From NCBI GenBank assembly GCA_031271785.1, contig JAISUZ010000072.1, positions 1 to 34,841 on the forward strand: a stretch of 34,841 nucleotides of DNA. The letters run 5' to 3'. Below the pieces are notes generated by a model. It made no database searches. It had not been told where the DNA came from and worked only from the letters and a program-made list of their open reading frames with translations. Source of the DNA: Fibrobacter sp. (GTDB lineage: Bacteria > Fibrobacterota > Fibrobacteria > Fibrobacterales > Fibrobacteraceae). Position numbers and translations under genes: made by a program. Numbering within the stretch: position 1 is the stretch's first letter; every line of letters starts with the position of its first letter. Below, piece by piece: positions 2,923 to 4,979 of this stretch.

Positions 2923-4653
2923 ATGGCATATATTGCAATGGCTCGAAAATGGCGCCCCGAATCTTTCCAGGACATGGTTGGACAAGATCATATCGCCAAA
3001 ACAATTGAAAATGCGATTCAAGGGGGCCGGCTTCACCACGCCTTTTTGTTTACCGGTACCCGCGGGGTGGGTAAAACCTCTTCGGCGCGGATTCTTGCAA
3101 GAACTTTGAATTGTTCCGGCGGAAACCCGCTCTCGCCTTGCGGAAAATGTCCGAGCTGCAAAGATATTTCCGGCGGCACACCGATGGATGTGATTGAAAT
3201 CGATGCCGCAAGCAATACCGGCGTGGACAACATGCGCGATATTCTCGAAAAAACGCAATACACCCCGATGATCGGGAAATACAAGATTTTCGTGATCGAC
3301 GAAGTTCACATGCTTTCCAAAGGCGCTTTCAACGCTCTTTTAAAAACGCTCGAAGAACCGCCGCCGCACGTGATTTTCATTTTCGCCACAACCGAAGTCA
3401 ATAAAGTTCCGCAAACGATTCTTTCCCGCGTGCAGCGCTTTGATTTTAAACGCCTGAGCCCCGAACAAATTTCGGGAAGGCTTCGCTTTATTTGCGAGCA
3501 GGAAGGAATCCAGGCCGACCGCGAAACTCTCGCGCTTTTCGCCGAAAAAGCCGACGGATCCATGCGCGACGCCCTCACCTACTTCGATCAGGTTTACGCT
3601 TTCACCGGGAAAACGATGGACGAAGCTTCCGTGCGGCAGATTCTCGGAATCCCGCCGAACGATCTTTATTTTGAACTGATTCAAGCCATTGCCGACCACC
3701 AGGTAAAAGGCTGTTTCGCCGTCATTGAAAAATCCTATCAAATGGGGCTTGAACTTTCTCCGCTCCTGGACGGGTTTGCAAAATTCTTGCGGAATCTGCT
3801 TTATATTCGCGTCGGCGATGTGGACGCGGAATCCTTAAATATCTCCCCAACCCTTTTCGGTAAACTGCAAAACGCCGTACCCGAAATTTCAAACGGCGAT
3901 ATTCTCCGCATTGCAAAAATGCTCACCGATCTTCAAGGGAGCCTCCGTTACGCAAGCCACCCGCGGCTTCTCGTGGAAACCACACTCGCCCGTATGGCTT
4001 GGCTCGACCGCATAACGGACTTAAAAAAGGCGCTCGCCGCCATGAACTCCCCCACGAACACAGCGGCAAACGCGGATAAAAAAAAAATAACCCCGGCGCC
4101 TAAAGCGCCGCCCGGACCGCCGTCCGCGCCGGAAATGATTCCCGAACCGGAATTTGACCCGGGCGATTTTAAGATTGAATTCGATGAACCGTTCACACCG
4201 GCGGTAGAAGCCGATTCCCGCTACGAGATTTGCGGCAAGTGGCCCCAGATTGTGAAAAACCTTTACCACGATTCCGACAACGGATTTTTCGCTTCAAACC
4301 TCGAGCACACGACTCTCGAACACGGAGATTTTGCGGTCACGCCGTTTCCGCTTACCCTTCGCTTTCCCGCAAAAGCCGCTTTCGGCCACAAAGAAATCAC
4401 CTCGCGGAAAGATTATCAGGAACGTCTCATCCGCATACTGGAAGACCGCCTTCAAACCGTCGTCACCATTCAAATGGAAATCGACTCGGAAACGTCCGGC
4501 GGAAAAACGCCGCGCTCCCCCTGGGAAAAAGACCTCGCCGGCGATCCGGTATTGAAATCGTTTGCCGAAATATTCGAACTCGAACTTTTTGAAACCAAAA
4601 GGCGCTCCCGCGCCGCGGAACCGAGTGAAATCTCCTGTTCCGAAAACGACTAA
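2923..4653 (+). CDS. dnaX: DNA polymerase III subunits gamma and tau
   Basis: This is the clamp-loader ATPase of the replicative polymerase. The 576 residues include Walker A GTRGVGKT (45-52), the zinc-binding Cys set C64, C73, C76 and C79, Walker B VIDEVHML (124-131), and the sensor/arginine region TTEVNKVPQTILSRVQRF. The C-terminal part beyond residue ~385 is Pro- and charge-rich and then forms the tau-specific domains. At codons 386-388 a run of ten A followed by a hairpin may produce a shorter gamma form (separate entry). The start at 2923 gives MAYIAMARKWRP, as in other DnaX proteins; an ATG five codons earlier would precede the likely transcription start. ybaB follows after 17 bases, the common dnaX-ybaB pairing. 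recR, often next, is absent. Confidence 0.97.
   Translation: MAYIAMARKWRPESFQDMVGQDHIAKTIENAIQGGRLHHAFLFTGTRGVGKTSSARILARTLNCSGGNPLSPCGKCPSCKDISGGTPMDVIEIDAASNTGVDNMRDILEKTQYTPMIGKYKIFVIDEVHMLSKGAFNALLKTLEEPPPHVIFIFATTEVNKVPQTILSRVQRFDFKRLSPEQISGRLRFICEQEGIQADRETLALFAEKADGSMRDALTYFDQVYAFTGKTMDEASVRQILGIPPNDLYFELIQAIADHQVKGCFAVIEKSYQMGLELSPLLDGFAKFLRNLLYIRVGDVDAESLNISPTLFGKLQNAVPEISNGDILRIAKMLTDLQGSLRYASHPRLLVETTLARMAWLDRITDLKKALAAMNSPTNTAANADKKKITPAPKAPPGPPSAPEMIPEPEFDPGDFKIEFDEPFTPAVEADSRYEICGKWPQIVKNLYHDSDNGFFASNLEHTTLEHGDFAVTPFPLTLRFPAKAAFGHKEITSRKDYQERLIRILEDRLQTVVTIQMEIDSETSGGKTPRSPWEKDLAGDPVLKSFAEIFELELFETKRRSRAAEPSEISCSEND
4078..4110 (+). promoter_or_regulatory. Candidate dnaX slippage/frameshift site (A10 plus hairpin)
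   Basis: Ten consecutive A (4078-4087) cover codons K386-K388. Six bases later CGGCGC (4094-4099) pairs with GCGCCG (4105-4110) around a five-base loop. A -1 shift leads to a TAA at 4101-4103 and a protein of about 393 residues. A +1 shift meets TAA at 4088 and gives about 388 residues. Known dnaX genes make gamma by ribosomal frameshifting (E. coli) or by RNA polymerase slippage on an A-run (Thermus). Position, spacing and stops fit either. Confidence 0.7.
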
Positions 4654-4670: not shown

Positions 4671-4979
4671 ATGAACATGCAGAAAATGCTGAAAGATTTG
4701 CAAAAAATGCAATCCAAAATGAATAAAGCTCAAACCGAGCTCAAAGCCCAAACTTACGAAGCGGAAGCCGGCGGCGGCATGGTAAAAGTGGTCCTCAACG
4801 GACAAGGAATCATGACCTCCATCAAAATCAACCCCGATGCCGTGGACAAAGACGATGTGGAAGCGCTCGAAGACCTCGTGATGGCAGCCGTCAACGCCGC
4901 CATGAAGAAAAAAGAAGAAGCCGCCGAAGACAGCATGAACGAACTCACGCAAGGCTTCAAAATGCCGGGTCTCATGTAA
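4671..4979 (+). CDS. YbaB/EbfC family nucleoid-associated protein
   Basis: This small DNA-binding protein of 102 residues is a typical length for the YbaB/EbfC family, whose dimers bind DNA and affect nucleoid structure. The N-terminal 20 residues are rich in Met, Lys and Gln (MNMQKMLKDLQKMQSKMNKA), forming the long helix of the family. The middle holds the family pattern GGGMVKVVLNGQG followed by KINPDAV, then a charged helix. It lies 17 bases after dnaX and is probably co-transcribed. Ribosome site AAAGGA (4658-4663) is 8 bases before the ATG. Confidence 0.93.
   Translation: MNMQKMLKDLQKMQSKMNKAQTELKAQTYEAEAGGGMVKVVLNGQGIMTSIKINPDAVDKDDVEALEDLVMAAVNAAMKKKEEAAEDSMNELTQGFKMPGLM

Follow-up and report, generated by a model that had tools for sequence, protein, structure and literature searches.

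The window analysed here is a 34,841-nucleotide stretch of contig JAISUZ010000072.1 from a Fibrobacter sp. assembly (GCA_031271785.1), which carries dnaX, the gene for the gamma and tau subunits of DNA polymerase III. The dnaX product matches NCBIfam TIGR02397 with 434 bits (cut-off 250) and PRK05563.1 with 464 bits (cut-off 400). Its start was placed at the ATG at 2923, with a TTG at 2908 and an ATG at 2938 as alternatives. Directly after dnaX, at positions 4671-4979, lies a gene that we assigned by eye to a YbaB-like nucleoid-associated protein. The features of dnaX discussed below are collected in Table 1.

Table 1. Features of the dnaX gene in the window (positions are those of the whole stretch).
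Feature	Position	Strand	Remarks
dnaX, DNA polymerase III gamma/tau	2923..4653	+	full-length product tau, 576 aa
Weak 3-bp stem GCG-GCAAA-CGC	4063..4073	+	z -0.49, not significant; site of the relatives' 5' stem-loop
A10 slippery run AAAAAAAAAA	4078..4087	+	direct reading; Lys386-388 and first base of Ile389
TAA, first codon of the +1 frame	4088..4090	+	would end a 388-aa product
Tau-specific C-terminal part	4088..4650	+	188 aa; conserved motif SPWEKDLAGDPVLKSFAEIFELELFETK near its end
6-bp GC stem CGGCGC / GCGCCG, loop CTAAA	4094..4110	+	arms 4094-4099 and 4105-4110; 6 nt past the run
TAA in the -1 frame	4101..4103	+	would end a 393-aa product, ..KKKNNPGA

The dnaX frame passes through the run as AAA AAA AAA, and the next codon is ATA. 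Direct reading agrees with the initial annotation, which had placed ten A's over Lys codons 386-388 and stops soon after them in both shifted frames; these stops lie 3 and 16 nt past the run. The break was said to fall just behind the clamp-loader core, and indeed the Pfam domain III of DnaX ends at residue 371. Likewise, the lengths given there for the short products, about 388 and 393 residues, agree with a start at ATG 2923. An mRNA shorter by one A is predicted to yield a gamma of 388 aa (389 aa if the mRNA is longer by two A's), while an mRNA longer by one A would yield the 393-aa form, and a ribosomal -1 shift would give a similar product. Two stops this close are matched by only 2% of the control positions in the window's dnaX. 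The genome to which the window belongs (G000, 2.28 Mb) contains three A10 runs in all: besides the one in dnaX, a dsbD-like gene has one, and the third lies in no long sense-strand open reading frame. In another genome of 5.4 Mb (G056), the sole A10 is that of dnaX, and between one and three A10 runs were counted in each of several further genomes of 2-7 Mb.

The initial annotation had named conservation of the run in relatives as a check. We read 138 dnaX loci from the phylum Fibrobacterota and found a run of A8-A12 just behind domain III in 132 of them, spread over 35 genera. The run is A10 in 102 of these loci, A9 in 15, A11 in ten, A12 in four and A8 in one; most of the relatives have draft assemblies, where homopolymer lengths may be wrong, although many independent genomes show the same length. 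Such a run might merely encode an incidental poly-lysine linker without any recoding, with gamma either not made at all or produced by proteolysis, as it is in Caulobacter. The site does fall in the linker after domain III, and AAA is the usual lysine codon of the window's dnaX (31 AAA versus 4 AAG), which is why the argument from codon bias rests on the relatives. There, the pure-A run is kept even where AAG dominates, as in genus g12, with a GC content of 0.68 and AAA at 10% of lysine codons, and in genera g2 (21%) and g15 (23%); GC-rich genera with AAA at 10-30% of lysine codons retain the run. Ten A's kept against the codon bias elsewhere in the phylum argue against a mere linker, as does the conservation of both out-of-frame stops.

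In 116 of the 132 loci, both frames other than that of tau meet a stop within 30 nt; the figure is 116 of 121 when g6 and g8, which hold most of the exceptions, are set aside. Within the window's family, probably Fibrobacteraceae, the sequence is most often A10-GTAACTGA or A10-TTAACTGA, with TAA or TAG ending the +1 frame and TGA ending the -1 frame. When set against codon positions elsewhere in these genes, the proximity of the stops gave a combined p of ~7e-14 over 19 genera, a value that is overstated because the genera are related. Judged from these comparisons of sequence, the A-run is functional.

Among the 138 loci, the run is absent altogether from families f4 (L051 and L053) and f7 (L061, L062, L056 and L110), whose loci thereby form natural negatives for the need for gamma. 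The DnaX proteins of f4 are short, at 441-445 aa, yet end in a motif resembling that of the tau tail. In L061 and L062 we considered a heptamer like that of E. coli, but rejected it: the AAAAAAG present there is out of phase (T_AAA_AAA and G_AAA_AAA), so that ribosomal shifting is no simple replacement for the run.

We then followed the frame of the tau tail across the 132 loci with a run. It is frame 0 in 107, -1 in ten and +1 in 15, and on a quick LG tree of the N-terminal domain at least ten switches of frame are required, several of them common to whole clades. A tail profile built solely from frame-0 lineages detected the shifted tail in g2, g10, g12, g22, g23, g25, g29, g31, g32 and g33, with E-values from 1e-42 to 2e-4. 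The values were 4e-4 for g8 and 0.001 to 0.13 for four loci of g6, and no frame left unassigned scored E<0.01. At least ten genera thus have their tau tail in a shifted frame, so that full-length tau in those species would need a frame transition, which makes an incidental linker very improbable. An A9 run with tau in the +1 frame is seen at L027, L029, L030, L036, L037, L039, L040, L041, L045 and L100 of g6 and at L031 of g8; these loci have no immediate frame-0 stop, and their short product is predicted to carry about 5 to 51 extra residues.

Frame changes of this kind might also arise at the level of DNA, with replication slippage altering the length of the run and cells switching between tau and gamma by phase variation. 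Two genomes of the set would fit, namely G009 (L023) and G129 (L137), each a single genome with an A11 run and an out-of-frame tau among near relatives that have A10; this A11 could be an assembly error or a tolerated change of length. Against phase variation, the run is exactly A10 in 102 of the 132 loci, whole clades share several of the frame switches, and every cell needs a clamp loader, and we regard it as scarcely credible.

Taken together, the A10 of the window is likely a programmed transcriptional slippage site that gives both tau and gamma. When RNA polymerase copies the ten A's, the hybrid, made of A:T pairs throughout, would slip, and a share of the dnaX mRNAs would gain or lose A's. 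Messages with A10 or A10+3n would be translated into tau, while those with one A fewer or one more would end after 388 or 393 residues, respectively, both of these being gamma, that is, the clamp-loader core minus the tau tail. We infer that the slippage takes place at transcription, how efficient it is and that both proteins accumulate. Among the orthologues, the frame shifts go both ways, a pattern by which Antonov et al. 2013 (PMC3711429) recognized transcriptional slippage and which argues for it here.

The initial annotation had offered two mechanisms, transcriptional slippage and a ribosomal -1 shift, and it is the former that fits far better. In the ribosomal alternative, which would follow the manner of E. 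coli dnaX, tRNA-Lys would slip on A_AAA_AAA under the stimulation of the downstream hairpin, and translation would end at the TAA at 4101 with a gamma of ~393 residues. Ribosomes can also slide on A-runs (PMC4363877), and the locus offers a heptamer, a suitable spacing and a near stop in the -1 frame; several relatives have a purine-rich GAGG before the run, like the SD-like stimulator of E. coli. However, a ribosomal shift needs only one stop, yet the +1 stop is kept equally close, and 6-7 A's would be enough, against the 9-12 of the run. In several lineages, moreover, tau could be made only by a +1 shift. Finally, A_AAA_AAA is reported in PMC5009743 to be far less shifty than A_AAA_AAG in E. 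coli, and the TA that follows the run in the window leaves only A_AAA_AAA available.

The downstream stem bears on the same alternative. The initial annotation had joined the slippery run and a hairpin as the device for making gamma. The stem is present, and both the run and gamma are supported, but the hairpin has no counterpart in the relatives. In favor of a stimulator, the stretch that holds the stem ranks among the best 1-2% within its own gene. Perfect 6-bp stems with loops of 3-8 nt occur about three times per kb in the window, and comparison of the window's stem with synonymous variants gave p = 0.09. Across genera, neither the in-gene percentile nor synonymous recoding nor a positional scan showed a signal of structure on the 3' side: downstream folding in the relatives was level with the rest of the gene (combined p 0.41, z near 0). 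With no signal across genera, a conserved role of the 3' hairpin as a ribosomal stimulator was rejected, and a ribosomal shift is unlikely to be the mechanism here. The stem may be a species-specific addition or due to chance, and is probably incidental to transcriptional slippage, the reading we prefer.

On the 5' side of the run, a different structure was found in the relatives. In family f1, the 24 nt immediately next to the run fold more stably than expected, with a mean z of -2.22 across 11 genera (-2.23 when the large genus g2 is left out), while the folding is weaker in f3 (mean z -0.87) and in other families (-0.63). This signal in f1 is gone 6 nt or more further upstream, where z is near or above 0. 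Against synonymous variants, the 5' stem gave a combined p of 1e-4 in a first set, the same data from which the hypothesis had come; held-out new genera did not confirm it by the synonymous test (p = 0.20), and we therefore treat the 5' stem-loop as a feature of the family and not of the phylum. Covariation in g2, g3 and g5 is modest, with 82.6% of cells paired and four cells changed on both sides. In many relatives, the GAGG 5' of the run forms one arm of this hairpin; it is absent in the species of the window.

A second candidate for the same device is the dsbD-like gene P0002, whose A10 lies at G000:C22:1683-1692 (locus L033, run at 1501-1510, with the gene on the minus strand of the locus). 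This run separates the N-terminal domain from the transmembrane domain (..PPVS-KKK-SESF..), and runs of A8-A11 are found there in at least 11 loci of family f1. A stop in the -1 frame follows 4-9 nt past the run and, in most of these loci, one in the +1 frame 14-47 nt past it. The dsbD-like gene is thus a candidate for a second slippage gene, which would yield a free N-terminal domain.

Whether cells need gamma besides tau has long been debated. A site that almost every species retains, that two families have lost and whose frame has flipped at least ten times amounts to a natural experiment on this need. The findings also matter for annotation, as gene finders will call an essential gene broken or truncated when its parts lie in different frames of the DNA. 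Should the abutting stem-loop act as in Roseiflexus, it would be a case of hairpin-driven slippage of RNA polymerase in a cellular gene. We tentatively propose, as a picture that may well prove wrong in some part, that poly-A slippage has operated in the dnaX of Fibrobacterota since early in the phylum, leaving the frame of the tau tail nearly free to drift; that in Fibrobacteraceae a stem-loop of the nascent RNA tunes the slippage, as a cellular counterpart of the Roseiflexus insertion sequence; and that the dsbD-like gene uses the same device. A literature search turned up no paper about Fibrobacter slippage other than the 2013 survey of Antonov et al. Slippage is known from Thermus dnaX and, as far as this search shows, its wide distribution in Fibrobacterota was previously unreported.

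Several known systems can be compared with the site. The -1 ribosomal frameshifting of E. coli dnaX concerns the same gene, the same place and the same outcome of gamma and tau, and the species of the window has a 3' stem as well. The window differs in having no A_AAA_AAG, a 3' stem that is not conserved, a long homopolymer and stops in both frames. The survey of Antonov et al. 2013 (PMC3711429) comprised 17 two-ORF dnaX genes from 12 genera, with 7-10 A's and a -1 shift predicted at the DNA level. The relatives g12, g22, g23, g29 and g33, in which recoding would be needed for tau, resemble these genes, and the A10 is shared; in contrast, the species of the window keeps tau in frame, and g6, g8, g25, g31 and g32 have it in the +1 frame. 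The IS630 element of Roseiflexus is described as slipping at transcription by means of a stem-loop (Penno et al. 2015, as cited in PMC5009743), and relatives in the Fibrobacteraceae likewise have a stem-loop directly 5' of the slippery run. The element slips on a T5C5 run, whereas in the window the run is A10, slippage would go both ways and the 5' stem is weak.

The closest likeness is to dnaX of Thermus thermophilus, for which transcriptional slippage on an A9 run with stops in both frames was shown (Larsen et al. 2000, as given in PMC1088944 and PMC5009743). In both genes, nine or more A's follow the clamp-loader core, tau occupies a single long frame and the other two frames stop close by, the truncated product being gamma, and in Fibrobacterota a run of this kind after domain III, with stops in both frames, is conserved beyond what codon usage explains. 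From a site of this type, dnaX mRNAs differing in their number of A's would be expected, along with tau and gamma in a ratio of about 1:1. The window has A10 instead of A9, and slippage there is predicted from the sequence; unlike in Thermus, the tau frame of Fibrobacterota moves between 0, -1 and +1, and relatives in the family carry the abutting 5' stem-loop. With these differences, the site in the window is very probably a dnaX slippage site of the Thermus type.
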